This document shows positions 1-14,494 of a DNA stretch of 14,986 nucleotides, one piece after another (the stretch's first letter is position 1; every line of letters begins with the position of its first letter). The stretch is from an uncultured Bacteroidota bacterium (GTDB lineage: Bacteria > Bacteroidota > Bacteroidia > Chitinophagales > Chitinophagaceae): assembly GCA_946479055.1 (NCBI GenBank), contig CAMLEX010000024.1, positions 1 to 14,986 of the forward strand. The letters run 5' to 3'. Below the pieces are notes generated by a model that saw only the letters and a program-made list of their open reading frames with translations, was not told the DNA's origin and made no database searches. The position numbers and the translations under genes are program-made.

Positions 1-25
1 TCCCTACACGACGCTCTTCCGATCT
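1..25 (+). other. Illumina adapter remnant (not genomic)
   Basis: These 25 bases are identical to the 3' end of the TruSeq universal/read-1 adapter, ending in GCTCTTCCGATCT. They sit at the very first base of the window, so this is an untrimmed contig end. Genomic sequence starts at about base 26. The reading frame of the next gene happens to stay open through the adapter, so an automatic caller could add eight or nine false residues to that protein. Confidence 0.97.
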
Positions 26-609
26 CAAAAGAAGATTTTGTTTCTGATCTGTCTCAGGGGATTCTTCGGGTGGGGCTTACTTATTATCTGACTGATGATT
101 TAAAACTTACAGCAGGCTACGCTTATGTCAATCATTTTCCTGCTGAAAATCATAAAAATATTTCACAACCTGAACATCGCCCCTGGCAACAACTTCAATG
201 GCATACCCGCTATCCCAAACTCCGCCTGATGCAATGGTTTCGGTTAGAGGAAAGATGGCGCAGAAAAATTTTAAATGATGATAAACTGGCTGATGGTTAT
301 AGTTTCAATTTCAGGGCCCGGTACAACTTCTTTTCACAATTTCCATTAAGTAAAAAATCCTTTCAGTCAGGCACCTTCTCATTTGTTGTCAACGATGAAG
401 TTCATATCAACTTTGGGAAACAGATTATCAATAATTATTTTGACCAAAACCGGTTTTTTGTGGGTTTTGCTTACCATGTCAACAAGCATGATAATTTTCA
501 ATTTGGCTATATGAACCTATTTCAACAATTGGCTTCCGGGAACCGCTATCGGAGTAATCATGTGGCAAGGTTATTTTATTTTCATAACATTGATCTGAGG
601 AAAGAGTAA
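26..609 (+). CDS. DUF2490 family outer-membrane protein, 5'-truncated
   Basis: This is the C-terminal part (about 194 codons) of a DUF2490 protein, a Bacteroidota family of about 230 to 260 residues thought to form an outer-membrane beta barrel of unknown function. The family pattern is clear: the HRPWQQLQW motif, the QWFRLEERWRRK segment, an aromatic-rich RARYNFF strand, VNDEVHINFG, then FDQNRFFVGFAYHVN and a final strand near HVARLFYFH. Alternating hydrophobic and aromatic residues fit amphipathic strands. The start codon and signal peptide are lost at the contig end. GTG at 70 is inside the conserved region and is not the true start. The gene lies upstream of a separate promoter, so it is probably not part of the sulfatase operon. 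Confidence 0.82.
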
Positions 610-635
610 ATTTTTTTAAAACAATATCCTACAAT

Positions 636-667
636 TTTGGTAGACTACTAAAACTCTGATATTTTTG
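636..667 (+). promoter_or_regulatory. Bacteroidota-type promoter for the sulfatase operon
   Basis: TTTG at 636-639 is followed after 20 bases by TATTTTTG at 660-667. This fits the -33 TTTG and -7 TAnnTTTG elements of the Bacteroidota primary sigma factor with no mismatch at the conserved positions. Transcription would begin near 672-675, giving a 5' leader of about 355 bases before the SusC start codon and placing the cysteine-rich open frame about 70 bases from the transcript end. The assignment is by eye; no start site has been mapped. Confidence 0.6.
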
Positions 668-684
668 GTTTTCAAAGAGTTTAG
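648..684. repeat. Inverted repeat straddling the -7 element
   Basis: AAACTCT at 651-657 and AGAGTTT at 676-682 are perfect inverted copies separated by 18 bases. A further two pairs (648-649 with 683-684) form if A650 is bulged. The two arms flank the TATTTTTG element at 660-667 and the expected transcription start. It could be an operator for a dimeric regulator, a weak hairpin, or chance in AT-rich DNA. No T-run follows, so it does not look like a terminator of the DUF2490 gene. Confidence 0.3.
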
Positions 685-741
685 CAGGGAGTTCATAAAA
701 GTCAGGTATAATACGATTTCAAAAAAGAACAAGCTTCATCC

Positions 742-795
742 ATGTATTCGGGCAAGAAAGATATAATGAATTGTTGTAACGGCTGTTGTTGCTGA
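742..795 (+). CDS. Cysteine-rich leader peptide (candidate attenuator)
   Basis: An ATG-initiated frame of 17 codons encodes MYSGKKDIMNCCNGCCC and ends in TGA. Five of the last seven codons are Cys (TGT or TGC), and the run ends directly at the stop. It lies in the long leader between the predicted promoter and the SusC gene, about 233 bases before that gene's ATG. Short upstream frames ending in Cys runs are known in other bacteria, for example mycobacteria, where ribosome stalling on Cys codons couples sulfur-gene expression to cysteinyl-tRNA supply. All downstream genes here concern sulfate esters, which fits that role. The alternative is a thiol peptide that senses copper or another metal. 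There is no clear Shine-Dalgarno, as is usual in this phylum. The stretch is TGTTG-rich, so a chance frame cannot be excluded. Confidence 0.55.
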   Translation: MYSGKKDIMNCCNGCCC

Positions 796-918
796 TTTCC
801 ACCCTGTGAATAATTGCCTTGCCTTGTTAATTCTTTTTCCGTTAACTAACTTTTTTATCTCACATTCCTATTATGATCATTGATACTTCATAGGAGTAAT
901 ATCCTTTCTGAATAAAAT

Positions 919-948
919 GGCCGGAAACTGTTGACGCAGCTCCCGGCC
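919..948 (+). promoter_or_regulatory. GC-rich hairpin in the operon leader
   Basis: GGCCGG at 919-924 pairs perfectly with CCGGCC at 943-948, and CTG at 928-930 can pair with CAG at 937-939 inside the loop. It is much more GC-rich than the surrounding leader. No U-run follows, so it is not a standard intrinsic terminator. It lies between the Cys-rich leader peptide and the SusC gene, where an attenuating or ribosome-masking structure would be expected. Confidence 0.45.
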
Positions 949-978
949 TGAGTTAAACAAGGCTTCTCGCTAAAGAAT

Positions 979-998
979 GCAACCCATAAATGGGCTGC
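979..998 (+). promoter_or_regulatory. Hairpin just upstream of the SusC start
   Basis: GCAACCCA at 979-986 and TGGGCTGC at 991-998 form a stem of seven pairs with one A/C mismatch around a TAAA loop. It is followed by an AT-rich stretch up to the ATG at 1029. CGGCC at 998-1002 could instead pair with GGCCG at 919-923, so this hairpin and the one at 919-948 have a possible mutually exclusive fold. A role in gating translation of SusC is inference. Confidence 0.35.
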
Positions 999-1028
999 GG
1001 CCTATTATTTAATCACAAATCAAAGCTA

Positions 1029-4000
1029 ATGAAAAAACTTTTGAAGGACTGGGCAGTATGGATACTATTACTGGCGCCTTCTGCTGTATTGGCACAGCCA
1101 TCGACCGAACCTACTATCAATTCTATTGCCAACGGAAAGGTTTTTGATAGTAAAACACAATCAGCACTGGAAGGCGCAACTGTACAGATCAAAGGCACTA
1201 CCAACATCGCTACAACAGACAGCAAAGGAAAGTTCACCCTAAGAACAGGACAAAAACTTCCATTTACACTTGTGGTCAGTTATGTTGGTTATCAAACACT
1301 GGAAACGATAGCCAGCACATCAGACATCGAAATAAAATTGCAAACCGCAGAAAGCAATTTAAATGAAGTGGTGGTAGTAGGGTATGGTGTACAAAAGAAG
1401 TCAGACCTGACGGGGTCGGTAGCTTCCGTATCGCCCAACTTAATTAAACAATCACCGGTGAGTTCTTTCGACAGAATTCTGCAGGGTGCGGTTGCTGGTG
1501 TACAGGTAATTCAAACCTCGGGCCAGCCGGGCAGTGCCGTAAGTATTCGTATCCGTGGCGGCAATTCCATTACAGGTGGTAATGAACCATTGTATGTGAT
1601 AGATGGATTCCCGGTTTACAATGATAACTCAGATGCGAATGCGGGTGTAACCAGCGGACCAAGTATCAATGCACTCGCCAGTTTAAACCCGAGTGATATT
1701 GAAACTATTGATGTATTAAAAGATGCGTCTGCTACATCTATCTATGGTTCAAGAGGAGCCAATGGAGTTGTTATTATTACTACTAAAAAGGGAAAGGCAG
1801 GACAGAACATTGTTAGCTATGAAGGATATTATGGTCAGCAGGAAATTATCAAGACCATTGACGTACTCACCAGTTCAAAAGCATGGGCGCAATTAAAAAA
1901 TGATGCATTGGTGAATGCAGGAAAACCTGCTTTCTATACACAGGCGCAAATAGATGCGTTGGGTGAAGGAACGGATTGGCAAAAAGCTGCCTTTGAAAAA
2001 GCTCCTATACAAAGTCACCAATTTAATATTTCAGGTGGTGAAGAAAAAACCAGGTATGCTATCGCTTTAAATTATTTTAAGCAGGACGGTATTATCAGGA
2101 ATTCGGATTTCCAGCGTTTCTCCGCCCGTTTAAATCTCGACAGAACTATTTCTGAAAAATTTAAAGCAGGTACAAATCTTACTGCCAGCAGGATAGATGC
2201 TAATGAATCAAATGCCAACATAGTGAGCACTTTATTACTGTTACCACCAACAGTTTCCATTTATGATTCAGTGGGAAACTATACGTTACAAAGTCCTTTT
2301 GAAGTAGCATTAGGAAATCCTATTGCAACACTGGAAAAAGAAATCAACCAGACTAAAACATTTCGTTTACTGGGAAGTGTATATGGCGAGTATACGATCA
2401 TTCCAGGCTTAACAGCTAAAGTTTCTATTGGTGCTGATATCATCAACAACAAACAAAACAGGTATTTACCCTCCAGTTTATATGAAGCTTATACGGTAAA
2501 CGGCTCTGCATCGGTGGGAACAAAATCGGTTAATACTTTGCTGAATGAAAATACACTCACCTATACTCATAAGATCAAGCAACATAATCTAACTGTGTTA
2601 GCGGGTTATACACAACAATCTTATAAAAGTGAAAATGTTACAGCCAGTGCACAGGGGTTTGTATCAGACTTATTAACCTATAATAATCTTTCCAGCGGTT
2701 CTTTATCTGTTATACCTGTTTCTTCTGCAGCCGATTGGTCATTGAAATCGTTTATAGGTCGGGTTAATTATTCATTAGCATCAAAATATTATATCACTGT
2801 AACGGCAAGAGCTGATGGCTCATCCCGTTTTGGTAAAAATAATAAATGGGGTTATTTTCCATCAGCAGCTTTGGGATGGAATGCAGGAAGAGAAGATTTT
2901 CTGAAACACTCAAGGCTGATCAGTAACCTGAAATTAAGGGTTAGCGCCGGCGTAACCGGTAACCAGGAAATCGGGCAATACCAATCCCTGGCTGCACTTT
3001 CTAATAACGGCTACCTGATTGGAAATGTGTTATCAGTAGGCTTTTCTCCTAATCGTATTGCTAATGCGGATCTGAGTTGGGAAAAAACAGCACAGTATGA
3101 TGCAGGTATTGATATTGGTTTGCTAAAGAATCGCATCAGTATTGTATTGGATGCTTATTATAAAAGAACTTCTGCGCTTTTATTAACGGTCCCTATTCCC
3201 TATACAACCGGTTATTCAACTTCGTTACAAAACTATGGTACGGTTGCCAATAAGGGTATTGAACTATCGGTGAATACTCAAAACATTTCAGCAAAGAATT
3301 TTACATGGAATACCAGCCTGGTATTCTCGCTAAACAGGAATAAAATTATAAGTCTTGGCCAGGGTGTAGGCTATTTAATTTCTGATCCGCTTATTGCCAA
3401 GGTTGGCGAAGCGCTGGGTTCATTCTATGGGTATCAATCAAACGGACTATTTCAACTAGGTGATGATATTTCCAAATTACCTACTATTGATGCGACCACT
3501 ACCAAGCCTGGCGACAGAAGATATGCTGATATCAATGGCGACAGCAAAATCACACAGGCCGATGATAGAACAATTATTGGTTATGCCCAACCGAAATTTC
3601 TTGCAGGGTTAACTAATAATATTTCCTGGAAAAATTTTGATCTGACTGTTTTCCTGTATGGTTCATACGGAAACGAACTATTCAACCAGAACAGGCAGCA
3701 GCTTGAATTATTATCAGGCCAGCAAAACGCCGCTGCATCAGCCCTGGACAGGTGGACGACCACTAACCCAAGCAATGACGTACAAAAAGCAAAAGAAGAT
3801 CCCGCACCTGTTACTACCAGCCGCTATGTAGAAGACGCCTCGTATTTAAGATTAAAAAATCTGACTTTAGGATATTCCTTACCGCAAGCCATAGCAAGAA
3901 TTATCCGCTTAAAACAATTGCGGGTGTATGTAAGTGCTAACAACCTGGTCACCTGGACGAAATACACGGGCTACGATCCGGATGTAAGTAAGAATGAGCA

Positions 4001-4082
4001 GTCGACATTAACACAAGGGGTAGACTATGGCGCTTATCCAAATGCTAAATCTTTTTTAGCCGGTATCAACATTACTTTTTGA
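1029..4082 (+). CDS. SusC/RagA-type TonB-dependent outer-membrane transporter
   Basis: This 1017-residue protein is a SusC-type TonB-dependent transporter, the outer-membrane barrel that imports ligands delivered by its SusD partner. It has a Sec signal peptide cleaved after AVLA (residue 22), a carboxypeptidase-regulatory-like domain (about 35-105), a TonB-box region NEVVVVGYG (112-120), a plug (about 125-255) with the hallmarks IRGGNS, PLYVIDG and SIYGSRGANGVVIITTKKG, then a 22-strand barrel to the C-terminal phenylalanine. There is no N-terminal STN signalling domain, so it is not itself a sigma/anti-sigma transducer. I chose the ATG at 1029 over that at 990 because it begins directly with the signal peptide (MKKLLK) and the earlier one lies inside a hairpin. 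The SusD gene follows after 18 bases. The substrate is unknown; the sulfatases downstream suggest a sulfated compound. Confidence 0.95.
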   Translation: MKKLLKDWAVWILLLAPSAVLAQPSTEPTINSIANGKVFDSKTQSALEGATVQIKGTTNIATTDSKGKFTLRTGQKLPFTLVVSYVGYQTLETIASTSDIEIKLQTAESNLNEVVVVGYGVQKKSDLTGSVASVSPNLIKQSPVSSFDRILQGAVAGVQVIQTSGQPGSAVSIRIRGGNSITGGNEPLYVIDGFPVYNDNSDANAGVTSGPSINALASLNPSDIETIDVLKDASATSIYGSRGANGVVIITTKKGKAGQNIVSYEGYYGQQEIIKTIDVLTSSKAWAQLKNDALVNAGKPAFYTQAQIDALGEGTDWQKAAFEKAPIQSHQFNISGGEEKTRYAIALNYFKQDGIIRNSDFQRFSARLNLDRTISEKFKAGTNLTASRIDANESNANIVSTLLLLPPTVSIYDSVGNYTLQSPFEVALGNPIATLEKEINQTKTFRLLGSVYGEYTIIPGLTAKVSIGADIINNKQNRYLPSSLYEAYTVNGSASVGTKSVNTLLNENTLTYTHKIKQHNLTVLAGYTQQSYKSENVTASAQGFVSDLLTYNNLSSGSLSVIPVSSAADWSLKSFIGRVNYSLASKYYITVTARADGSSRFGKNNKWGYFPSAALGWNAGREDFLKHSRLISNLKLRVSAGVTGNQEIGQYQSLAALSNNGYLIGNVLSVGFSPNRIANADLSWEKTAQYDAGIDIGLLKNRISIVLDAYYKRTSALLLTVPIPYTTGYSTSLQNYGTVANKGIELSVNTQNISAKNFTWNTSLVFSLNRNKIISLGQGVGYLISDPLIAKVGEALGSFYGYQSNGLFQLGDDISKLPTIDATTTKPGDRRYADINGDSKITQADDRTIIGYAQPKFLAGLTNNISWKNFDLTVFLYGSYGNELFNQNRQQLELLSGQQNAAASALDRWTTTNPSNDVQKAKEDPAPVTTSRYVEDASYLRLKNLTLGYSLPQAIARIIRLKQLRVYVSANNLVTWTKYTGYDPDVSKNEQSTLTQGVDYGAYPNAKSFLAGINITF

Positions 4083-4100
4083 TTTTTAAAACGCATAACG

Positions 4101-5531
4101 ATGAAAAATTATTTATTCCGGCTAATATTCTTTTCAATTACCATACTATTTATTTCCTGTGAAAAATTGACGGAAGAACCTAAGGCCGTATTAACCACTG
4201 AACAATTTTATAAAACACAGGCGGATGCTATAGCTGCGGTAACCAGTGTATACAATGCATTGAATGCAAGCGGTCAAACTATATATAACAGCCTGTTCCA
4301 GATCGGGCTTGATATCGCTTCTGACGAAGCATTACCAGGGCCAAGGGCAAGAAATGCTAATGTGAGAGCATTCGCGGTATTATCGCACGCTACTACCAAT
4401 GATAGAGTCGAGGAGATCTGGAAACAACATTATGCCGCTATCAACAGGGCCAATGTTGCTATAGATCGTATTCCTGTTATTGATATGAATGAATCATTAA
4501 GAATAAGATTGGTAAATGAAGCTAAATTTTTAAGAGCCTTATATTATTTCAATCTTGCCCGGTTATATGGAGGGGTACCGCTTGTATTGCACGAGCCTTC
4601 CTCTCTCGGTAACGAAGAAGTACTTGTAAGCAGAAATACTTTGGAAGAAGTTTATCAGCAGATCATTACTGATTTAAAAGATGCTGAAAGCCTGCCGGCT
4701 ACCTACAGCAGCAGTGATATAGGACGGGCGACAGGTGGCGCAGCAAAAGCATTGCTTACAAGAGTATATCTGACCAGGAAGGATTGGGACAATGCAATTA
4801 CAAAATCATTAGAAGTCATTACTGGCTCTTACGGTTATGACCTCTTTGCAAATTTTGCTGATGTATTTAACAAGGCAAACAATAATGGTAAAGAACATAT
4901 TTTCTCCGCGCAATTTAAAAGTTTGACCAATGGGCGAGGCAATTCATTAGGTAGCCGCGGCACACCTACGGGCATACCGGGGATAGACGGTGGTGACGCA
5001 GACATTCCAACGACTAATTTATACGGCTTGTACCAGGCTGAAGATAAAAGAAGGGATGTTACATTCTTTACATCATTAGTTAGCCCGGTAAATGGTAATA
5101 CCTACACATTTACTCCTCATTTCAGAAAATATTACGACCCATCCGTAAATCCCAGTACAGGAGAGTCAGGAATTAATTTTCCCATCATCCGCTTTGCAGA
5201 TGTATTGCTGGAATATGCGGAAGCATTCAATGAAAAAAATGGACCCGCTAGTGAGGCCTATGATGCATTGAATAAAGTCAGGGTAAGAGCAGGGTTAACT
5301 CCTTTGAGCGGATTAACGAAAGAACAGTTTCGTGATTCAGTTTATCATGAACGCCGTTTGGAATTTGTGTATGAACATCAACGTTGGTTTGATTTGGTAA
5401 GAACAGGCAGATTAGTTGAAAGCCTTCATGCAGTAGGTAAAACAAACGCGGCGGAGAAACATTATCTCTATCCTATTCCGCAAAGAGAAATTGATCTCAA
5501 TCCCAATCTTACACAAAATCCCGGTTGGTAA
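4101..5531 (+). CDS. SusD/RagB-type substrate-binding lipoprotein
   Basis: This 476-residue surface lipoprotein is the partner of the SusC transporter just upstream and would capture the ligand as the lid of the complex. A lipoprotein signal peptide ends in FISC, with lipidation expected at Cys20, followed by the acidic stretch EKLTEE that resembles surface-export signals of Bacteroidota. The SusD-like N-terminal region begins at about residue 30 (TTEQFYKTQADAIAAVTSVYNAL), TPR-like helices follow (NEAKFLRALYYFNLARLYGG), and the family C-terminal signature is present (FADVLLEYAEAFNE, YHERRLEFVYEHQRWFDLVRTG, then YPIPQREIDLNPNLTQNPGW). The length is slightly below the usual 500 to 550. It lies 18 bases after SusC and 31 bases before the first sulfatase, so cotranscription is likely. 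Ligand identity cannot be read from the sequence. Confidence 0.95.
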   Translation: MKNYLFRLIFFSITILFISCEKLTEEPKAVLTTEQFYKTQADAIAAVTSVYNALNASGQTIYNSLFQIGLDIASDEALPGPRARNANVRAFAVLSHATTNDRVEEIWKQHYAAINRANVAIDRIPVIDMNESLRIRLVNEAKFLRALYYFNLARLYGGVPLVLHEPSSLGNEEVLVSRNTLEEVYQQIITDLKDAESLPATYSSSDIGRATGGAAKALLTRVYLTRKDWDNAITKSLEVITGSYGYDLFANFADVFNKANNNGKEHIFSAQFKSLTNGRGNSLGSRGTPTGIPGIDGGDADIPTTNLYGLYQAEDKRRDVTFFTSLVSPVNGNTYTFTPHFRKYYDPSVNPSTGESGINFPIIRFADVLLEYAEAFNEKNGPASEAYDALNKVRVRAGLTPLSGLTKEQFRDSVYHERRLEFVYEHQRWFDLVRTGRLVESLHAVGKTNAAEKHYLYPIPQREIDLNPNLTQNPGW

Positions 5532-5562
5532 TTCTAACACCGTTATTACAAACACTAAGACA

Positions 5563-7260
5563 ATGAAACAAACGAATCACATAAAAGTAAAGTTTGCATT
5601 TAATATCAAAGCTCTTTTTATATTTTTTTCACTAACCCTTTCCTATACACACGGATTTTCGCAAAAAAAATCCTCAGCAGCCAAACCCAATATCATCCTC
5701 ATTATGGTGGATGATTTGGGGTTCTCTGATTTTGGCGCTTACGGCTCAGAGATCAATACGCCCAATATTGACAAGCTTGCTTTTGGAGGAATAAGGCTTA
5801 GAGAATTTTATAATAATTCCATCTGCGCACCGACCAGGGCATCCTTGATAACCGGTCAGTATCCGCACAAAGCGGGAGTTGGTTATTTTAATGTCAACCT
5901 TGGTTTGCCCGCTTACCAGGGCTGGTTGAATAAAGAATCACTCACGTTTGGCGAGGTATTGAAACAGGCCGGGTACAATACTTTCATTACGGGTAAATGG
6001 CATGTTGGCAACGATAGTTTATACTGGCCAAAGCAAAGAGGATTTGATAAGTTCTTTGGTTTTATCGGTGGGGCCAGCAATTATTTTGATATTGGTTCTT
6101 ACCCGGAGAAAGCACCACCGGTGGAGTTGGTGGAAGATAATAAAAGAGTTAACCTCGAACCGGGTAAATACTTAACAGATGAAATTGCGAACCACGCCAT
6201 TTCATTTATCGAAGAAAAAAATAAAACAAAAAAACCTTTCTTTTTATACCTCGCCTTCAATGCGCCACACTGGCCTTTGCAGGCATTACCGGAAGACATT
6301 GCGAAGTACAAAGGCAAATATGAAATTGGCTGGGACTCATTAAGGAGCCAGCGTCTTGCCAAACAAATAGCATTAGGGATTGCAAACCCCCAGCAAGCAA
6401 TCGCTAAAAGAGATCCCGAAGTGCCTGAATGGGAAAGTTATACCTATGATGAAAAACAATTGTGGCAACGCAAGATGGAAGTATATGCAGCTATGATCGA
6501 CAGGGTAGATCAAAACATCGGGAGATTATTAGCTGAATTGAAAAAAATAAAGCAGGATGATAACACTTTAATTGTACTCATATCTGACAACGGTGGCCAG
6601 GGCGGCTTTTCTCCATTGGGCAGAAGAAGGCCAAGAAATTCCGGGCCAATTGGTACAGCGGGTTCCTATGATTATGTAGAACAAGGTTGGGCGCAGGTTT
6701 CCAACACTCCTTTCAGCAAACATAAAGCCAACGCTCATGAGGGAGGTATCAGTTCACCTTTCATTGCCTGGTATCCTAAAAAAATAAAAGCAGGAACTAT
6801 CACCAAGGGCACAGCACATTTAATTGACCTGGCTCCTACTTTTTATGAGGTGGCCGGTACAAAATACCCGGAAATATATAATGGTATAAAAACAAATCCG
6901 TTGGCAGGGATTAGTTTAACCAACTTGTTATTTAATGGAAATAAATTGTCAAGACAGCAACCCATTTTCTGGGAACGTGGCGGCGATCGAGCTGTAAGAA
7001 AAGGAAAATGGAAAATTGTTTCTACATATCCGGCTAAAGAATGGGAACTCTATGATATTGAAACGGACCGTGGCGAAACAACAGATATAGCCAAACAAAA
7101 TCCTGATGTAGTAAAAGAGTTGCAGGCGGACTATGATATCTGGGCAAAAATAAATGGCGTTGAAAATTATGATAAGTTAAGGCCCGCTGTACAAGGACAG
7201 CAGCAAGGAACAGGAAATAATAACAACCAACAGAGGAATAACAGCAGGCGGGCATTCTAA
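5563..7260 (+). CDS. Secreted Cys-type (S1 family) sulfatase, copy 1
   Basis: This 565-residue arylsulfatase-like enzyme hydrolyses sulfate esters. Its signal peptide runs to about residue 34 (cleavage near GFSQ), placing it in the periplasm or at the surface. The sulfatase signature CAPTRASLITG holds Cys88, which must be oxidised to formylglycine, and Arg92. Other expected active-site residues are present: Asp50-Asp51 (metal), Lys145 and His147 (GKWHVG), His236 (APHWP), Asp342-Asn343 (SDNG) and Lys388. The C-terminal subdomain carries WELYDIETDRGE. The last 25 residues are Gln/Asn-rich and likely disordered. I chose ATG 5563 because it opens a signal peptide; the frame extends upstream over the SusD end without a better start. 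The needed FGE is encoded downstream. It is a paralogue of the next gene. Its substrate is unknown. Confidence 0.93.
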   Translation: MKQTNHIKVKFAFNIKALFIFFSLTLSYTHGFSQKKSSAAKPNIILIMVDDLGFSDFGAYGSEINTPNIDKLAFGGIRLREFYNNSICAPTRASLITGQYPHKAGVGYFNVNLGLPAYQGWLNKESLTFGEVLKQAGYNTFITGKWHVGNDSLYWPKQRGFDKFFGFIGGASNYFDIGSYPEKAPPVELVEDNKRVNLEPGKYLTDEIANHAISFIEEKNKTKKPFFLYLAFNAPHWPLQALPEDIAKYKGKYEIGWDSLRSQRLAKQIALGIANPQQAIAKRDPEVPEWESYTYDEKQLWQRKMEVYAAMIDRVDQNIGRLLAELKKIKQDDNTLIVLISDNGGQGGFSPLGRRRPRNSGPIGTAGSYDYVEQGWAQVSNTPFSKHKANAHEGGISSPFIAWYPKKIKAGTITKGTAHLIDLAPTFYEVAGTKYPEIYNGIKTNPLAGISLTNLLFNGNKLSRQQPIFWERGGDRAVRKGKWKIVSTYPAKEWELYDIETDRGETTDIAKQNPDVVKELQADYDIWAKINGVENYDKLRPAVQGQQQGTGNNNNQQRNNSRRAF

Positions 7261-7296
7261 ATCAATTGCAATAAAGCAAATTATAACTTCAGAGAA

Positions 7297-8940
7297 ATGA
7301 AAAATATATTCCATAAACTTATACTGGCGGCGGTTGTATCAACTACCGTTATGACTTCGTTTGCACAACAAACTTCAAAGCCCAATATCATTTTGATAAT
7401 GGTAGATGATATGGGCTTTTCTGATCTCGGCGCTTATGGTTCCGAAATTCAAACACCGAATATTGACAAATTAGCTTTTGAAGGATTAAGGTTAAAAGAA
7501 TTTTATAACAATTCTATTTGCGCTCCAACAAGAGCTTCACTGATCACTGGCCAATACCCTCACAAAGCCGGTGTGGGCTATTTTGATGTGAACTTAGGTT
7601 TACCTCCTTACCAGGGATTTTTAAATAAGGAATCATTAACCTTTGGAGAAGTATTGAAGCAGGCCGGGTACAGCACCTTGCTTTCAGGCAAATGGCATGT
7701 AGGTAACGACAGTACATCATGGCCCAATCAAAGAGGGTTTGATAAATTCTTTGGTGTAATTGGTGGTGGTGCTAATTATTTTGATGCGGAACCGATGCCA
7801 TTGGGTGGAAGACAATATCCCGTTGTGCTGCTCGAAAATAATAAACGTATTCACCCCGGTGGTGATGGTAATTATTTCACTAATGAAATCACCAACCATG
7901 CCGTACAGTTTATTGATGAACAAAATAAAACAGGCAAGCCTTTCTTTCTTTACCTCGCTTATACTGCACCACATTGGCCTTTGCAGGCTTTGCCGGAAGA
8001 TATCGCCAAATACAAAGGCCGTTATGATATTGGCTGGGATTCATTACACGAAGAAAGATTAGCCAAACAAAAAAAATTAGGATTGTTTCAGGTCGGTGAA
8101 ACTATTGCAGCAAGAGATTCTGCCGTACCCGAATGGAATAACCTGACTTGGGATGAAAAACAATTGTGGAAATCGAAGATGGAAGTATATGCGGCTATGC
8201 TTGACAGGGTAGACCAGGGGATCGGCAAATTATTAAACAAATTAAAGGAGCTGAAAAAAGATGAGAACACCATCATCATTTTTATTTCTGACAATGGTGC
8301 ACCTGCGGAAGATGTAGCCCATATTGGCAGGAAAGCGGGAAGAAATACAGGCCCTGTTGGTACGGCTGGTTCTTTTGAATCACAGGGAAAGAACTGGTCA
8401 TATGCATCCAATACACCGTTCCGTTCATTTAAAGCAAACGCCTACGAAGGAGGGATCAGTTCTCCTTTCATAGCATGGTATCCTAAAAAAATAAAAGGGG
8501 GAACTATTGCGAAAGGCACGGCACACCTGATCGACCTGGCGCCTACATTTTATGAATTGGCTGGCACGGTTTATCCCACAAACTTTAATGGTGTACAAAC
8601 AAATGCATTGCCGGGTAAGAGCTTAACTAATTTATTATTTGAAGGCAAAGAGCTGCAAAGAGAACAACCCATTTTTTGGGAACGTGCGGGCAACAGGGCT
8701 GTTAGAAAAGGCAATTGGAAATTAGTCTCCATCTTTCCATCTTACCAGTGGGAGTTATATGATATAGAAAAAGACCGTGGCGAAACACAAAATGTCGCAT
8801 CCAGGAATCCATTGATAGTGGATGAGCTTTCAGCGGACTATTTTGAATGGGCCAAACAAAACGGCGTGGTGGATTATGATAAAATAAAACAAGCGGCTCC
8901 GGCTTCCATTATTAATCGCCGGCAACAGGCTTCTAATTAA
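7297..8940 (+). CDS. Secreted Cys-type (S1 family) sulfatase, copy 2
   Basis: This 547-residue enzyme is a close paralogue of the preceding sulfatase, with a signal peptide cleaved near SFAQ (residue 24). Active-site residues are Asp37-Asp38, Cys75 and Arg79 in CAPTRASLITG, Lys132, His134, His226, Asp332-Asn333 and Lys379. By eye about 19 of the first 134 aligned mature residues differ. Divergence is concentrated in two stretches likely to line the substrate pocket: residues 164-192, where this copy has extra residues (AEPMPLGGRQ region), and 334-368 after SDNG. The His at 392 of copy 1 is Tyr383 here. Synonymous positions differ widely between the two genes, so the duplication is old and both copies have been kept under selection. 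The gap to copy 1 is 36 bases. Likely different but related substrates. Confidence 0.93.
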   Translation: MKNIFHKLILAAVVSTTVMTSFAQQTSKPNIILIMVDDMGFSDLGAYGSEIQTPNIDKLAFEGLRLKEFYNNSICAPTRASLITGQYPHKAGVGYFDVNLGLPPYQGFLNKESLTFGEVLKQAGYSTLLSGKWHVGNDSTSWPNQRGFDKFFGVIGGGANYFDAEPMPLGGRQYPVVLLENNKRIHPGGDGNYFTNEITNHAVQFIDEQNKTGKPFFLYLAYTAPHWPLQALPEDIAKYKGRYDIGWDSLHEERLAKQKKLGLFQVGETIAARDSAVPEWNNLTWDEKQLWKSKMEVYAAMLDRVDQGIGKLLNKLKELKKDENTIIIFISDNGAPAEDVAHIGRKAGRNTGPVGTAGSFESQGKNWSYASNTPFRSFKANAYEGGISSPFIAWYPKKIKGGTIAKGTAHLIDLAPTFYELAGTVYPTNFNGVQTNALPGKSLTNLLFEGKELQREQPIFWERAGNRAVRKGNWKLVSIFPSYQWELYDIEKDRGETQNVASRNPLIVDELSADYFEWAKQNGVVDYDKIKQAAPASIINRRQQASN

Positions 8941-8961
8941 TGTCCCTTATAAAACTTAGTT

Positions 8962-9681
8962 ATGAAAAATAATATCATTACGGTATTTATACATTTATTT
9001 TTTATTACCGGAACACAAGCTCAAATAGTAAAAGACGAAAATCATCCGCCGCTGGGATTGGACTCTTTTGCAGCAAAAATAGACAGGCAGATAAAACCAC
9101 AGATCATCGATGCAAGAAGCGCTGATGAATTTGCATTGAATCATATTAAAGGTGCCATTAATTTTAATCTGCAAACTGAAGGGTATGAAACTTTGGTACT
9201 ATCTCTTCTAAACAACGAACCTGTATTCATTTACTCTATAGGAACTGGCCGCAGTGGACAGTTGGCGAAGGATTTAAGAGACAAAGGTTTTAAAGAAGTA
9301 TTTGAACTGAAAGGCGGTATTGCCAATTGGATAGGCGGAGGTAAGCCCTATTACACTTCTGCCAAAAAAAGTGTGACACTGCAGGACTATAAAACCATCC
9401 TTGCAAACAATCCACTCGTACTGGTGGACATCGGCTCACGTTATTGCGGGGCCTGCAAAAAAGTAAAACCAATTTTAGACAGCCTTCGTAGCGAAAATAG
9501 AAATACTATAAAAATTATAGAAATTGACCTGGAAGAAAGCCCGCAATTGATAAGTGAATTAAAAACAGTGGATGCTTTTCCTTATTTGATTTTATACAAA
9601 AAAGCAGAGGTAGTTTTAAAAAGAAGCGGACTTAGTGATTTAAAAAATACACTAGACTTAGCCATTGCAAAAGCAAAATAG
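8962..9681 (+). CDS. Secreted rhodanese-like/thioredoxin fusion protein
   Basis: This 239-residue protein has a signal peptide (cleavage after TQA, residue 20), a rhodanese-like domain (about 30-130) and a thioredoxin-like domain (about 138-239). Rhodanese landmarks are IIDARSADEF (48-57), HIKGAINF and ELKGGIANW. The catalytic loop reads YSIGTGRS (91-98), where the usual form is YCRSGxRS, so the catalytic Cys is Ser92 and sulfur transfer by this domain is unlikely. The thioredoxin domain has a CGAC redox pair (Cys162, Cys165) and the cis-Pro motif FPYLI (Pro207). The protein would act in the periplasm with the sulfatases and the FGE. It could reduce the FGE or protect the sulfatase cysteine before oxidation; this is inference from context. 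It starts 21 bases after the second sulfatase. Confidence 0.85.
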   Translation: MKNNIITVFIHLFFITGTQAQIVKDENHPPLGLDSFAAKIDRQIKPQIIDARSADEFALNHIKGAINFNLQTEGYETLVLSLLNNEPVFIYSIGTGRSGQLAKDLRDKGFKEVFELKGGIANWIGGGKPYYTSAKKSVTLQDYKTILANNPLVLVDIGSRYCGACKKVKPILDSLRSENRNTIKIIEIDLEESPQLISELKTVDAFPYLILYKKAEVVLKRSGLSDLKNTLDLAIAKAK

Positions 9682-9712
9682 TATTATCCTATCCCTATTC
9701 AAACAGTATTGT

Positions 9713-9976
9713 ATGCCAAAGTTTGTAACAACCATTCAACTTCATGATGCGGATGAGAGTGACTATAATAAATTATACAACGAGTTGACAAAAAAATCAA
9801 CTAAAAAAGGAAGACATGCAGTTCAAAGTAAAAGATATATTACAGGTAAAATTGAATATAAACAGGAAGGTGATGTGACAATACAGGAAGTTACTGATAC
9901 GGTTTTCAGGGCAGTTACCAAAACAGGAAAGAAATATTCATTTACTATTACCAGGAATAACACTATTGACGGTTAA
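9713..9976 (+). CDS. Small conserved-looking protein of unknown function
   Basis: This 87-residue soluble protein begins at ATG 9713 (MPKFVTTIQLHDADESDY); a TTG further upstream overlaps the previous gene and is not needed. It has no signal peptide, no cysteines and no membrane segment. A beta strand, then helix (SDYNKLYNELTKK), then alternating strands suggest a small ferredoxin-like alpha/beta fold. There is some resemblance to DUF2622/GhoS-type small proteins, but I cannot confirm it. It lies 31 bases after the rhodanese/thioredoxin gene and 46 bases before the YeiH-type transporter, so it is probably transcribed with them. Its function is unknown; a cytoplasmic accessory or regulatory role is possible. 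Confidence 0.7.
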   Translation: MPKFVTTIQLHDADESDYNKLYNELTKKSTKKGRHAVQSKRYITGKIEYKQEGDVTIQEVTDTVFRAVTKTGKKYSFTITRNNTIDG

Positions 9977-9998
9977 AGATCAATTGAAGGTAAATTTG
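9966..9998 (+). promoter_or_regulatory. Possible internal promoter before the YeiH-type gene
   Basis: TAAATTTG at 9991-9998 matches the -7 TAnnTTTG consensus. A TTG lies at 9966-9968, 22 bases upstream, slightly longer than the usual spacing. The transcription start would be about 20 bases before the ATG at 10023. It could let the transporter and the FGE be expressed apart from SusCD. The element is short and AT-rich, so chance is a real possibility. Confidence 0.3.
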
Positions 9999-10022
9999 TA
10001 ACACTAAAAAGAAAAATAAGCG

Positions 10023-11408
10023 ATGCCGTTCAACACCAATAAGAAAGTAAATACAGCCGGAGACGCATTGTCATTGTATGATGATAGTAAGTCAGAAGAA
10101 ATAGTAGCAAAACAAAACGTTTTAAATTTATCAGAAGATATATGGGCCGTAATCATCGGAGGTCTGTTGATTGCTACTGTGTTGGTCGCGGCATTGTTAT
10201 CGCCCGGATTTGAATTTAACACACCCGTATACCAGTGGGCTAACACAGAAGACTTATTTACAAAAGTACTTTCCGGCAACAACTTATTATTACTTACAGG
10301 TATTGGATTGGTATTCCTATTACTTTCATCCGTTGCTATCCGTTTATCCGGTGGCAGTATAAAAAAATACAGTACGGGTTTTATACTCATTTATATATTG
10401 GGTATTTTTTCTTTAATTATTGCCGGCAACAAATCAATCAACGCTTATGGTATCGAATATGTAGTATTCGCTTTACTACTTGGATTGCTGATTGGCAATC
10501 TTACTGTCATTCCGCCCTGGTTAAAAGAAGCGGCCCGTTCTGAATTTTTTATAAAAACAGGATTGGTAATTCTTGGCATCAGTGTGTTGTTTACGGATAT
10601 AATTAAAGCTGGGTTGCCGGGTATTTTACAGGCTGTATTGGTAGTAAGTGTAGTTTGGTTCTTTGCCTTGTGGTTGAGCCGTAAATTAAAAGTAGATGAT
10701 GAGTTTGGGGTAATACTCGCATCTGCAGTTTCCATCTGCGGTGTATCGGCTGCTATTGTTGCCAGTGGAGCTATTAAAGGAGATAAGAAAAAATTGTCTT
10801 ATATCACTACGCTTGTTCTGTTAGTAGCTATACCTATGCTGATCATTCAACCCTGGATAATAAAACAATTAGGCATTTCGGAAATAGTTGGGGGCGCCTG
10901 GTTGGGTGGTACATTAGACACAACAGCTTCCGTAACAGCCGCTGCTCAGTTAGTAGGCCCCGTTGCTGTTAAGGCTGGCGTAATTATTAAATTCTCTCAA
11001 AATGTTTTGATTGGCGTAGCCGCATTTTTTATCGCAGCCTGGTGGACATTGAAAAAGAATCCGGAACAAGCCACAGCGACAGAAGGCAAAGGATTAAAAA
11101 TTATCTGGGAACGTTTTCCAAAATTTGTACTGGGCTTTATCGCCGTCTCATTGCTTTTTTCTTTTTTGATTCCTGCAGACACTACTAAGCAAGTAAGTGG
11201 TTTCCTGAATGGCTTGCGTACTATTTGGTTTGCACTGGCATTTGTTGCAATCGGTTTGGAAGCCCGGTTTGTTGACCTGGTGAAGATACAGGGCGGCAGG
11301 CCTGCTCTCGCATTCATCGGTGCGCAGCTGTTTAACATACTATGGACATTACTTTGGGCTTATTTACTTTTTGGTGGAATTTTACTACCAACGCCTGGTA
11401 TAAAATAA
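10023..11408 (+). CDS. YeiH family putative sulfate exporter
   Basis: This 461-residue inner-membrane protein belongs to the YeiH/Cons_hypoth698 group (putative sulfate exporter family). Family features are the SICGVSAAIVASGAIKGDKK segment (about 236-255), GGTLDTTASVTAAAQ (about 294-308) and VKAGVIIKFSQNVLIG. I see roughly ten or more hydrophobic helices. The protein is longer than the usual 330 to 350 residues of E. coli YeiH: it has a hydrophilic N-terminus of about 38 residues and additional N-terminal helices. Members occur beside genes that release sulfate or sulfite, and YeiH has been linked to sulfite tolerance. Here it would handle sulfate freed by the sulfatases. The direction of transport is not established; uptake would fit a sulfur-scavenging locus as well as export. 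Start ATG 10023 gives the only sensible N-terminus. Confidence 0.85.
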   Translation: MPFNTNKKVNTAGDALSLYDDSKSEEIVAKQNVLNLSEDIWAVIIGGLLIATVLVAALLSPGFEFNTPVYQWANTEDLFTKVLSGNNLLLLTGIGLVFLLLSSVAIRLSGGSIKKYSTGFILIYILGIFSLIIAGNKSINAYGIEYVVFALLLGLLIGNLTVIPPWLKEAARSEFFIKTGLVILGISVLFTDIIKAGLPGILQAVLVVSVVWFFALWLSRKLKVDDEFGVILASAVSICGVSAAIVASGAIKGDKKKLSYITTLVLLVAIPMLIIQPWIIKQLGISEIVGGAWLGGTLDTTASVTAAAQLVGPVAVKAGVIIKFSQNVLIGVAAFFIAAWWTLKKNPEQATATEGKGLKIIWERFPKFVLGFIAVSLLFSFLIPADTTKQVSGFLNGLRTIWFALAFVAIGLEARFVDLVKIQGGRPALAFIGAQLFNILWTLLWAYLLFGGILLPTPGIK

Positions 11409-11474
11409 AACCTGGAGCCATTAATCATTTTGCAAACCTTAATATTGAGTAAGAACATAATTTCTAATGTACGT

Positions 11475-12572
11475 ATGCGATTCTTTAAAATAATAGCTGG
11501 TTGTTTTTTGATTTTGTTTGTAGCTGCATTCAATAAAAAAAAACAAGGAGGCAAATTACAATCTGTACCTGGTTCTATACGGGATAATGATACTGGCAAG
11601 CATATAGTATGCAGACCGCCTTCACGTTCTGTCGCTTTAACACCAGTTAAAAATAATGTTACGTCAATTGATAACGCCAATGCAGATATGGTATTGATTC
11701 CTGGAGGAAAATTTCAAATGGGCTCTGATGATTTTACTGATAGCAAACCTGTTCACCAGGTTACAGTAGATAATTTTTGGATGGATGTGCATGAAGTGAC
11801 CAATGCGCAATTTGCCGTTTTCGTAAAAGCAACGGGATATACAACCGTGGCAGAAAGAAAGTTAAACCCTGCTGATTTTTCGGGAGTGCCTGCAGATAAA
11901 TTAGTGCCCGGTTCTGCAGTATTTACACCACCTGCAAACCCTGTATCGTTGGACAATTCTTTGCAATGGTGGCAATATGTACCTGGTGCTGATTGGCGTC
12001 ACCCGCTTGGTCCGTCGAGTTCTATAAAAGACAAAGGAAATGAACCGGTAGTACAGGTATGCTATGAAGATGCGGCAGCCTATGCAAAATGGGCGGGGAA
12101 GAGATTACCTACTGAAGCAGAATGGGAATATGCGGCAAGAGCCGGTAAAATGAATTCAACATATTATTGGGGTAATGATTTGAAACCCGGTGGAAAATGG
12201 ATAGCCAATATTTTCCAGGGAAATTTTCCGGATAAGAATACAGTTGAAGATGGATTTAATGGCACAGCACCGGTAAAAAATTATTTACCCAATGCTTTTG
12301 GTTTATATGATATGGAAGGCAATGTATGGGAATGGTGCAGCGATCTCTACAGGCCTGATTATTATCAAAAAAGCCCGGCCAATAATCCAAAAGGCCCGGA
12401 TGATAGTTATGATCCGGAAGAGCCCGGCCTGGAGAAACATGTACAACGTGGTGGTTCTTTTTTGTGCAGCGATCAGTACTGTATCCGTTATAAGGCAGGT
12501 AGCCGGGGCAAAGGCGAAACCAGCAGTGCCAGTAATAATCTGGGTTTTCGTTGTGTAAAAGAATTGAGATAG
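11475..12572 (+). CDS. Formylglycine-generating enzyme (sulfatase maturation), exported
   Basis: This 365-residue protein is an FGE/SUMF1-type enzyme. With O2 and Cu(I) it oxidises the Cys in the CxPxR motif of sulfatases to formylglycine. The FGE-sulfatase domain spans about 69-363: MVLIPGGKFQMGSDDF, HEVTNAQFAVFV, GKRLPTEAEWEYAARAG, NAFGLYDMEGNVWEWCSD, and the C-terminal SFLCSDQYCIRYKAGSR with NNLGFRC. Cys331 and Cys336 match the copper-binding pair of true FGEs (Cys336/Cys341 in human), which FGE-fold proteins without FGE activity lack. Residues 1-20 form a signal peptide or anchor (hydrophobic 6-19), so it should work in the periplasm with the sulfatases. IAGC at 7-10 resembles a lipobox but is too near the N-terminus. 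ATG 11475 is chosen over an upstream TTG because it opens this segment. Last gene of the likely operon; 66 bases after the transporter. Confidence 0.88.
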   Translation: MRFFKIIAGCFLILFVAAFNKKKQGGKLQSVPGSIRDNDTGKHIVCRPPSRSVALTPVKNNVTSIDNANADMVLIPGGKFQMGSDDFTDSKPVHQVTVDNFWMDVHEVTNAQFAVFVKATGYTTVAERKLNPADFSGVPADKLVPGSAVFTPPANPVSLDNSLQWWQYVPGADWRHPLGPSSSIKDKGNEPVVQVCYEDAAAYAKWAGKRLPTEAEWEYAARAGKMNSTYYWGNDLKPGGKWIANIFQGNFPDKNTVEDGFNGTAPVKNYLPNAFGLYDMEGNVWEWCSDLYRPDYYQKSPANNPKGPDDSYDPEEPGLEKHVQRGGSFLCSDQYCIRYKAGSRGKGETSSASNNLGFRCVKELR

Positions 12573-12607
12573 AAAATCAAATGATAATCTTCTGATGCGT
12601 ATCTTAA

Positions 12608-12736
12608 TCAACTTTATATGGGAAAGAAAAAAATAGCTATTTGGTTATTACGCCTTATAAAAAGCAGGTTGTTTATCCTGATCTTGATAAACTCGCTAAA
12701 GACAAACAACACCGGTTTGAATTTACTATCGCATAG
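12608..12736 (+). other. Open fragment without start codon in the 12573-12816 gap
   Basis: The 244-base gap after the FGE gene holds no convincing gene. One frame is open from 12608 to a TAG at 12734-12736 and reads like protein (KNSYLVITPYKKQVVYPD, then LDKLAKDKQHRFEFTIA), with no ATG and a stop just upstream at 12605. It may be the remnant of a lost gene. A 51-codon ATG frame (12618-12773) in another phase looks like non-coding translation. I do not recognise a family. Confidence 0.2.
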
Positions 12737-12756
12737 GGACGTCATGGCAGAAAAAA

Positions 12757-12789
12757 TAATTTTGGATAAATAATAAACCGGTTATTTTG
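12757..12789 (+). promoter_or_regulatory. Possible promoter for the aldo/keto reductase gene
   Basis: TAATTTTG at 12757-12764 fits TAnnTTTG but has no TTG at the expected distance upstream. TTATTTTG at 12782-12789 has one mismatch and is preceded by TTTG at 12761-12764, with a short 17-base spacer. Either could drive the reductase gene starting at 12817, which the 244-base gap suggests has its own promoter. Confidence 0.3.
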
Positions 12790-12816
12790 CATTACCATAT
12801 AATTTGAATTTCAGTT

Positions 12817-13731
12817 ATGAATAAAATTTATCTCAGTGATTCCGGTCCCAAAGTTTCACCTGCCGTTTATGGTTTCTGGAGATGGGAAGATACCAGTGCA
12901 ACCGGTGTTGCAACAATGGAAAAAATTGTTAACCTCTGTCTTGAGCTTGATATCAATACTTTTGATCATGCGGATGTTTATGGCGGTTATCAATGTGAAG
13001 AGTTATTTGGTAATGTTATGAAGCAAAAATCTTTTAAGCGGGAAGATGTTGTTTTGTTTACCAAATGCGGTGTAAATATTCCGCACCCCAACCGCCCCGA
13101 AGTAAGAGTGAAATATTATGATACGTCATCCGCTCATATCCTGAAAAGCGTTGATAATTCATTACAAAAACTGAAAACAGATTATATAGATATATTCCTG
13201 TTGGATCAATTGGATCCTTTATCAAATCTTGAAGAAACAGCCCTTACCCTGGAGCGGTTAAGAACTTCCGGGAAGATCAGGAATATAGGAGTAGCTAATT
13301 TTTCAGTTTTTCAACACCAGTTACTGGCTTCTTATCTGCGGGTACCTATTGTTACCAATCATATTGAATTAAACCTGTTGAACACCGCATCATTGGACAA
13401 TGGTCAGCTTGATTATATCAAACAACGTTATATGCGTCCGCTGGCTGCCGCACCACTTGCCGGCGGAAGAATTGAAAATGGCACAGATCCTTTGGCGGTA
13501 AGAGTTCATTATAAGTTAGGAGAGATCGGAAAAAAATATGGAACCAATGTTGAATCAATCGCTGTTGCCTGGTTGATTAAATTAGGAGCATTGCCATTGA
13601 TCGGTACGCTAAATGAACAACGTATCCGCAATATTGTGAATGCATTTGATATTGATCTGGACCAACAAGATTGGTATGATCTGTATAATACTTCAAAAGA
13701 GGAAATTCATAAGGTGGATATGGAGGATTAA
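12817..13731 (+). CDS. Aldo/keto reductase, YdhF-like, catalytic His replaced
   Basis: This 304-residue cytoplasmic protein is an NADP(H)-dependent aldo/keto reductase of the YdhF-like branch, with a full-length TIM barrel. Catalytic Asp50 (FDHADVYGGY), Tyr55 and Lys83 (FTKCG) are visible. The fourth tetrad position, His in the usual LLIHRPDPL motif, is changed: the segment reads FLLDQLDPL, giving Asp130, with Arg to Gln and Pro to Leu next to it. Downstream landmarks are normal (GKIRNIGVANFS, PLAGGRI, LIGTLNEQRIRNI). The His normally orients the substrate carbonyl, so activity or substrate may be altered. It follows the sulfatase operon after 244 bases and is not clearly tied to it. The physiological substrate cannot be told. 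Confidence 0.85.
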   Translation: MNKIYLSDSGPKVSPAVYGFWRWEDTSATGVATMEKIVNLCLELDINTFDHADVYGGYQCEELFGNVMKQKSFKREDVVLFTKCGVNIPHPNRPEVRVKYYDTSSAHILKSVDNSLQKLKTDYIDIFLLDQLDPLSNLEETALTLERLRTSGKIRNIGVANFSVFQHQLLASYLRVPIVTNHIELNLLNTASLDNGQLDYIKQRYMRPLAAAPLAGGRIENGTDPLAVRVHYKLGEIGKKYGTNVESIAVAWLIKLGALPLIGTLNEQRIRNIVNAFDIDLDQQDWYDLYNTSKEEIHKVDMED

Positions 13732-13787
13732 TAGAGAATCCTTAGTTTACAAAACAAGATGTTGGGCAATGCAAGGAAACTTAATAG

Positions 13788-14357
13788 ATGTTGATATTAA
13801 TTTTATCTCCGGCTCTTGCTTTTGTCTTTGACTTCATCAGGCAAAAGCTTTTTATTTCAAAAAAATGGGTATTCCTGTTCATTTCTCTATTGACAATTCC
13901 TTCTTTGATAATATGGATGGCCGGCTATAATTACAGCGATATAAAATTCCTATGGTATGCAGAAATGTTTATCAGTACAAGTGGCCTTTTAGCATTCTAT
14001 TCCATAATTGGAAATAGAATTGGGCCAAAACTTGCAATTTCCATAGTAGCAACATTGTTTATTATAGCAATAACATTCTTAGGTGCTATGGGTGCTTCAT
14101 ACGGTGGCGGTGAAAGAGAAGTGATAAGTCAATCTAATTATAAAAACTATATAGCACTACAGCTTGAACCCCAACTCTATGAGGATGAAAAAACTTTAAG
14201 AATAAAAAGAACCCGGCTATTTGGATTTATTGAAAAAACCATTTTTGAAACCTGGTATACTGACACTTTGGCTACAAATAAGTGTAAATATTATGTTGAA
14301 GATAATAGCCTACAATTGGTCTATGACTTGTGTAAGCAAGAACTTACATCACGTTAA
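13788..14357 (+). CDS. Membrane protein of unknown function
   Basis: This 189-residue protein has about four hydrophobic helices in its first 105 residues (roughly 2-17, 27-45, 55-75 and 82-104), followed by a soluble C-terminal tail of about 85 residues starting at GGGEREV. The tail looks like a short alpha/beta segment (LQLEPQLYEDEKTLRIKRTR). A TAG stop lies directly before the ATG in frame (13785-13787), so this is the earliest possible start. It is 56 bases after the aldo/keto reductase. I do not recognise the family and see no catalytic motif. Base composition is AT-rich like its neighbours. Confidence 0.6.
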   Translation: MLILILSPALAFVFDFIRQKLFISKKWVFLFISLLTIPSLIIWMAGYNYSDIKFLWYAEMFISTSGLLAFYSIIGNRIGPKLAISIVATLFIIAITFLGAMGASYGGGEREVISQSNYKNYIALQLEPQLYEDEKTLRIKRTRLFGFIEKTIFETWYTDTLATNKCKYYVEDNSLQLVYDLCKQELTSR

Positions 14358-14456
14358 TAATTTGCAGAGGAAACCATATGTAAAGCTTATTTTTTTCGGT
14401 TCTGTAATTGAAATATTTGCCTTTATTGCTCAACAATGATTTTAAAATTCTGCTCG

Positions 14457-14464
14457 TATCTTCG
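14457..14464 (+). promoter_or_regulatory. Possible -7 element of the metZ-like gene
   Basis: TATCTTCG differs at one position from TAnnTTTG and is followed by CACTCC, a start-site context often seen in this phylum. It lies 31 bases before the ATG at 14495. No TTG is visible at the normal -33 distance, so the assignment is tentative. Confidence 0.35.
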
Positions 14465-14494
14465 CACTCCAATTAATAAAAGATATAGCAGCAT

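Follow-up and report, generated by a model that had tools for sequence, protein, structure and literature searches.

Cysteine-ending upstream frames as proposed leader peptides of SusCD-sulfatase operons in Bacteroidota

Described cysteine-codon leaders and the frame at 742-795

Short upstream frames with runs of cysteine (Cys) codons are described before the cys operons of Mycobacterium and P. acnes and before cbs of B. longum in a passage of Seliverstov 2005 (PMC1262725), whose authors also considered Rho for the mycobacterial cys leaders and mentioned TnaC of E. coli. Actinobacterial poly-Cys leaders are further credited to Canestrari 2020 in passages of PMC9031893 and PMC13236596. In Rhodobacterales, a passage of PMC8632094 describes the uORFC-8-2 motif before cysS, with tandem Cys codons and a proposed attenuation. 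For Bacteroidota, leader-peptide attenuation is noted for amino acid operons of F. psychrophilum in a passage of PMC9723704. Here we describe a frame of this general kind in 14,986 nucleotides (nt) of DNA from an uncultured Bacteroidota bacterium of the Chitinophagaceae (GenBank assembly GCA_946479055.1, contig CAMLEX010000024.1, positions 1 to 14,986 of the forward strand), a stretch that we call the window. The frame, at 742-795 on the plus strand, precedes an operon encoding a SusC/SusD pair and sulfatases. Judged from comparative sequence analysis, it is probably translated into a leader peptide through which the level of cysteinyl-tRNA governs this SusCD-sulfatase sulfur-scavenging operon.

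The window frame resembles the actinobacterial poly-Cys leaders, as far as the cited passages describe them, in being short, in carrying its Cys run near the stop codon, in having no conserved sense terminator and in lying before sulfur genes. It differs in belonging to another phylum, in standing before an outer-membrane SusCD-sulfatase scavenging operon, in having an operator-like site common to the leaders and, given a predicted promoter, in seemingly not being leaderless, whereas the mycobacterial start is. TnaC senses free tryptophan, whereas cysteinyl-tRNA is the signal proposed here; the likeness to TnaC lies in the proposed stall beside the stop codon with a Rho-dependent block. The uORFC-8-2 motif, in the passage cited above, ends in a U-run terminator and turned up only before cysS; here we found no sense terminator. 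The F. psychrophilum operons share with the window the use of leader peptides in Bacteroidota, but the passage describing them names no Cys leader and no SusCD operon. A full-text literature search, which left subscription papers mostly uncovered, returned no Cys leader for Bacteroidota or before a SusCD operon, in agreement with a preliminary description of the window, which knew of no SusCD case. Sulfur and cysteine sensing in Bacteroidota is little described in the literature searched. If our interpretation is true, the level of cysteinyl-tRNA would help to decide when these SusCD-sulfatase systems are made, and their role would then lie in the supply of sulfur as well as of carbon.

Read from the sequence, 742-795 translates as MYSGKKDIMNCCNGCCC followed by a stop codon, which confirms the 17-codon ATG frame ending CCNGCCC given in the preliminary description. 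Two Cys codons (TGT TGT) lie at 772-777 and three (TGT TGT TGC) at 784-792, directly adjoining the TGA stop at 793-795; together with the Cys profile of the class described below, this makes 772-792 the proposed stall site. A possible inner start, ATG at 766 with an A-rich upstream sequence (AAGAAAGATATA), would give the product MNCCNGCCC (766-795, plus strand). In the roughly 15 kb scanned, this was the sole intergenic frame with at least three Cys in the last six codons, the cut that we used as standard; two further Cys-tail frames lay inside genes on the minus strand. Rfam searches over the window gave no family match, either at the gathering threshold or at an E value of at most 1. Over the leaders of three other loci (L331, L369 and L361, in our numbering) there was likewise no match, with one L20_leader match elsewhere in L361.

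Recurrence before sulfur operons and a shared operator-like site

Comparison with other loci supported the frame as a class, the placing of its Cys run at the stop codon, its link to sulfur clusters and a shared arrangement of operator and promoter. We surveyed 99 SusC loci, 79 and 20 from two rounds, with the window left out of the count. They held 24 Cys-tail frames outside genes, 22 of them in sense and 2 in antisense orientation. An upstream Cys-tail frame was present in 18 of the 43 SusC loci with a nearby sulfatase homologue and in 1 of the 56 others (p=3.3e-7), and a tighter sulfatase cut gave 17/33 versus 2/66. The sole positive without a sulfatase was L214, where the frame precedes a gene that is weakly PstS-like. 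The sulfatase loci contained 119 intergenic stretches, of which 18 carried a Cys-tail frame, against a shuffle mean of 0.55 (maximum 4 in 200) and none in antisense. The gene-overlap or 3-of-6 rule missed L019 and L006 despite leader ends SCSCC and WCC. In some loci, such as L002, it is not SusC but the gene opening the cluster that follows the frame, and the distance from leader stop to gene ranged from 22 to more than 500 nt. No frame was found before hisG in 18 control genomes, where one preceded a divergent neighbour. These counts bear out the expectation that Cys-run frames stand ahead of sulfur genes more than of others. Their recurrence before sulfur operons in many Bacteroidota suggests that cysteine supply is probably gauged by the speed at which ribosomes pass through the run.

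A separate set of 334 genomes from one family, which we take to be the Chitinophagaceae, listed 34 SusC places, of which 28 were read as new loci; two of the other six were already known and four had no locus. The Cys-tail cut had been set before these loci were seen. A sense upstream Cys-tail frame was present in 16 of the 28 and an antisense one in 1. By stretches, 16 of 26 usable ones were positive and none was in antisense, with a shuffle mean of 0.225 and a maximum of 3 in 200. The leader ends included CCCCCC, ECCCCC, GCCC and FCCCC.

Conservation of the frame was followed in Dyadobacter, sampled as 48 genomes with 30 SusC loci read, at a cut of at least two Cys in the last five codons. 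A frame stood directly upstream of SusC in 16 of these loci, and 9 of the 14 others carried one before an upstream gene; wider regions (n=20) held 17 sense versus 2 antisense frames in total. Seventeen leaders that were compared were 33 to 53 codons long and ended in CCSCC, SCSCC, CCPCC, CCPRC, CCQPCC, CCCQRC and similar. An alignment of 11 leaders has gaps of 9, 15, 21 or 24 nt in the part that joins the conserved start to the conserved Cys tail, whereas those 3' of the stop codon took other lengths too. In-frame gaps with both ends kept in one frame are the pattern expected of a translated frame with a retained Cys end. Here, then, the terminal Cys codons and the reading frame persist amid a changing body and flanks, a positive result, for the class, of the orthologue comparison suggested in the preliminary description. 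As a separate observation, Dyadobacter loci L331-L342 have a conserved CGTATATGCATGAAGGT-like block before SusC, about 120 nt 3' of the leader stop.

Across 43 groups the fraction of Cys at the last four codons, counted back from the stop, was.85,.86,.78 and.60, falling to 0.01 at the tenth codon before the stop, with a minor second rise (0.12-0.19) at codons 11-13; this profile is partly built in, because the leaders were picked for their Cys tails. A genome-wide search for the CCC-stop pattern was too noisy to use, with 43-82 matches per genome versus 13-31 for a reversed control, an excess that we tentatively ascribe to coding sequences with TGC/TGT runs.

Cys-tail frames also preceded cysE in L208, cysH in L162 (with a peptide ending AACCCCQKFAACCCKC), a cysteine desulfurase gene in L461 and a TlpA/AhpC-type gene in L411, and within SusC clusters they stood before PstS-like and fatty-acid-hydroxylase-like genes. 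Among cysE-family loci, 1 of 30 had a frame. The idea of Cys leaders as a general trait of assimilatory cysD/cysH operons went unsupported, frames being rare there. We also observed a Met- and Cys-rich frame, MNNTVVNKMMMCCKMPMCIPIYCCRK, at L316:2090-2170, 345 nt 5' of a 436-codon gene, possibly a Met/Cys leader.

The promoter placed by the preliminary description at 636-667 is present as described: TTTG at 636-639, a 20-nt spacer and TATTTTTG at 660-667 on the plus strand. We take TTTG-N20-TATTTTTG to be a consensus Bacteroidota-type promoter, and its arrangement recurs in the leaders. The predicted −7 box (660-667) lies about 75 nt 5' of the ATG at 742, which argues against a leaderless start. 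Overlapping the −33 box at 621-650, in minus orientation, is an operator-like imperfect palindrome, ATCCTAC..GTAGACT. It was the best match in the window to a position weight matrix for which other leaders supplied 26 unique sites, with the window excluded; it scored 9.2, against 1.7 for the next-best position, and positions scoring at least 9.2 numbered 142 of 6,769,910 across loci, leader loci included. The site resembles those of L484, L485 and L487. More generally, the palindrome takes the form TTTGTCTAT-N5-TTAGTAGACT, and its left half, TTTGTCTA, occurred within 420 nt upstream in 38 of 46 leaders, many of them from Dyadobacter. In the 17 leaders made up by the Chitinophagaceae set and the window, TTTG-N17-23-TANNTTTG kept one position with respect to the operator in 10; an eleventh, L489, has a full promoter match placed elsewhere, and the −7 box was present in 13.

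A fixed operator pattern was searched for in the class, where 24 of 395 genomes had a match, and in one order, where 33 of 291 did. In the order it gave 74 matches versus 23 for the reversed control, with up to 6 in some Dyadobacter genomes; taken by itself, the pattern hardly exceeds chance except in a few genera. We read 97 of the 102 matches, which gave 94 distinct sites, and excluded 23 in called genes. Of the remaining 71 intergenic sites, 17 had a Cys-tail frame in the next 360 nt, compared with 1/71 and 0/71 in two control stretches; 11 of these were new leaders and 6 already known. Another count, at a looser cut, gave 20 of 29 sites with a frame and is partly circular because the matrix was built from leader-bearing sites. 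Among the genes 3' of the operator sites are some for SusC, sulfatase, O-acetylhomoserine sulfhydrylase-like, cysteine desulfurase and redoxin proteins. In L430 and L461 the palindrome precedes identified cysteine desulfurase genes. Near-identical operator sites were also seen in L440, L447 and L468, before genes of a size similar to those desulfurases; among these five loci L461 alone carries a Cys-tail frame. Combined with the operator, the Cys-at-stop frame provides a sequence handle for finding the putative regulon in related genomes.

Proposed control and alternative explanations

We infer translation, stalling and the direction of the response as follows. The promoter at 636-667, overlapped by the operator-like palindrome, would make a leader RNA, and the short frame in it would be translated. 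When cysteine is plentiful, the ribosome would reach the stop codon and leave, and the operon would be transcribed or translated less from before SusC onwards. When cysteine is scarce, it would stall on the Cys codons that adjoin the stop, which would lift the block. For this step a Rho-dependent, TnaC-like block near the stop codon is the likeliest form, at slightly less than an even chance in our judgement, with a translational block next.

Rho is favoured by elimination, because we found no sense intrinsic terminator. The window and the 16 Chitinophagaceae leaders gave 0 of 17 between leader stop and SusC, and a wider scan found one in 1 of 29 leader loci. On these counts, and within the reach of the scan, intrinsic termination as in a classical trp-type attenuator is unlikely. 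The system may be a test case of how attenuation works when intrinsic terminators are lacking. The preliminary description had noted two GC-rich hairpins ahead of SusC. Both exist, at 919-948 and 979-998, but a role for them as the block on the sense strand was not supported, since each scores like an intrinsic terminator solely on the minus strand. Similar CCGG...CCGG hairpins, differing in their stem pairs, occur in other leaders, such as L487 and L493-L498.

Antisense terminators were present in 10 of the 17 leaders, against a shuffle mean of 0.33 (maximum 2 in 100), and in 14 of the 29 leader loci of the wider scan. They were also found in 19 of 67 SusC loci with no frame directly upstream, where 6 had a sense terminator, and so go with SusC genes at large more than with the leader. 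A passage of PMC7366714 describes the DonS family, antisense RNAs 78-128 nt long that act against susC genes of Bacteroides. The window hairpins look like the ends of a putative DonS-like antisense RNA, lying opposite the susC strand, 31-50 and 81-110 nt 5' of the start codon. The DonS RNAs are from another organism, Bacteroides. A minus-strand −7-like TAGCTTTG lies at the SusC start codon with no −33 box and could instead be the sense ribosome site; a full antisense promoter was found in 1 of the 17 leaders. Over all SusC loci, upstream antisense terminators numbered 33/96 and sense ones 7/96, which suggests that DonS-like antisense RNAs may occur outside Bacteroides.

Several results weigh against a cysteinyl-tRNA-sensing leader. 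Pairing of the Cys run with downstream RNA was about that of shuffles (mean z −0.14 over the 17 leaders; −1.59 in the window), as was its pairing with the SusC start and ribosome binding site (mean z −0.31 over the same leaders). The skew of C over G after the stop codon, as a Rho-type rut region would show, was 0.38 in the window and positive in 23 of 27 groups versus 9 of 15 controls, no clear excess over the control level (p=0.15). No Cys-tail frame was present in 25 of the 43 sulfatase loci, and the three closest loci whose DNA was read, L379, L380 and L479 (72, 71 and 67% in SusC), had none before SusC, the upstream sequence of L380 covering only about 650 nt. The operator pattern was near chance in the class (28 matches versus 17 for the reversed control), and a looser cut weakened the operator test to 22/71 versus 7 and 9 in controls. 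In 40 cysD regions, fetched from 47 matches over the cut-off, we counted 2 sense versus 1 antisense frames, and in the cysH regions of 18 genomes, at a looser cut, 6 versus 9. Finally, all locus counts overstate independence, because the loci share ancestry.

The best-surviving alternative, which we regard as possible though unlikely, is translational control, in which the leader RNA would mask the region around the SusC start until a ribosome stalling on the Cys codons exposes it. It has a precedent in mycobacterial poly-Cys frames, and a passage of PMC13236596 describes mycobacterial cys genes as being under translation attenuation. The lack of sense terminators in all 17 leaders fits it, and for some leaders the folding is stronger than that of shuffles (mean z −1.35, n=17, five below −2.5), a figure to which the antisense-terminator hairpins contribute. 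The window leader (670-1040), by contrast, folds about as its shuffles do (z −0.67), the duplexes between Cys run and SusC start barely beat shuffles, and the wide range of stop-to-gene distances also speaks against it.

The remaining alternatives seem improbable to us. One, raised as a caution in the preliminary description, is that the class is real and the window frame an accident of a TGTTG-rich stretch. Shuffles of 610-1028 did yield a frame with at least three Cys in the last six codons in 14 of 2000 cases, yet 0 of 2000 reached the observed five in the last seven, a cut picked post hoc. The three nearest readable loci are frameless, and the closest SusC relatives, at 90-92% identity, were compared as proteins only. 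Set against this, the frame lies behind the conserved promoter arrangement and ahead of a SusC-sulfatase operon, and its stop falls 145-174 nt after the best operator match, inside the 114-219 nt from operator start to leader stop in 16 other leaders.

Equally doubtful is control of the operon by the operator and promoter with a DonS-like antisense RNA alone, to which the leader peptide would add nothing. The operator site is common to the leaders, antisense terminators occur in most of the 17, L479 has the palindrome and no frame, and 54 of the 71 intergenic operator sites lack a Cys-tail frame; this explanation nevertheless leaves the recurrent Cys-at-stop frames and the in-frame indels unaccounted for. 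A functional Cys-rich small protein binding a metal or an Fe-S cluster, rather than a stall sensor, would suit the keeping of the frames as frames and the cysteine desulfurase genes among the operator-marked ones, but it is likewise improbable: the peptide bodies look unrelated between groups, which have the Cys run at the stop in common, and several peptides, such as that of L012 (...FFPSCCC), confine their Cys to one short terminal run, which a codon sensor fits better than a metal-binding protein.

Downstream genes and a loop/partner element

By gene content, the window operon is a sulfur cluster. All its genes lie on the plus strand. By homology, it begins with a SusC/RagA-type TonB-linked outer membrane protein (1029-4082) and a SusD-like protein (4101-5531), followed by two sulfatases (5491-7260, with a provisional start codon, and 7297-8940) and a rhodanese-thioredoxin protein (8962-9681). 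A YeiH-like protein of a putative sulfate exporter family (10023-11408) was matched below the curated cut-off. The product of 11430-12572 belongs to the GldK/EgtB superfamily, with matches below cut-offs; it is possibly an FGE-type sulfatase maturation enzyme. At the window end, and incomplete there, lies an O-succinylhomoserine sulfhydrylase-like gene of the Met/Cys type, assigned by homology (14495-14986).

A further element distinguishes many of the other leaders. In 38 of 54, a 5' element after the operator carried an (A/G)CCACC or TCGCC(A/G) loop, which in several leaders forms the loop of a visible hairpin, and a complementary GGTGG or TGGCGA occurred in the frame in 34 of these 38 versus 1 of the 16 without the loop (12 of 13 groups). 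The partner lay mostly 46-65 nt 5' of the leader stop; L009 and L407 deviated on both sides of the pair. In most groups GGTGG kept to one reading frame, with another frame in group C and L407, so a peptide-level cause may account for some of its conservation. In L331-L342, for example at L331:1040-1233, a 5' hairpin loop AACCACC is complementary to GGTGGTT inside the frame. A second GGTGG was seen 67-111 nt 3' of the leader stop in L366, L369, L373-L376, L378, L486 and L502, hinting that it could compete for the same loop in a two-state switch. By eye, neither AACCACC nor GGTGG was seen in the window between promoter and stop.

We put forward one wider scheme tentatively, rating it as rather less likely than not to hold in full. 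It supposes that Bacteroidota have a sulfur regulon whose mark is the TTTGTCTA..TAGAC(T) palindrome and many of whose operons would carry a Cys-ending leader that reads cysteinyl-tRNA with no intrinsic terminator. In one branch, comprising Dyadobacter and some others, the AACCACC loop would pair with GGUGGUU about 52 nt before the stop as an RNA switch of new build; in the branch of the window, which has no such loop, a DonS-like antisense RNA may meet the leader.

Positions 1-25 of the window match what we take to be the end of a common Illumina adapter, and the contig start is therefore probably an adapter remnant.
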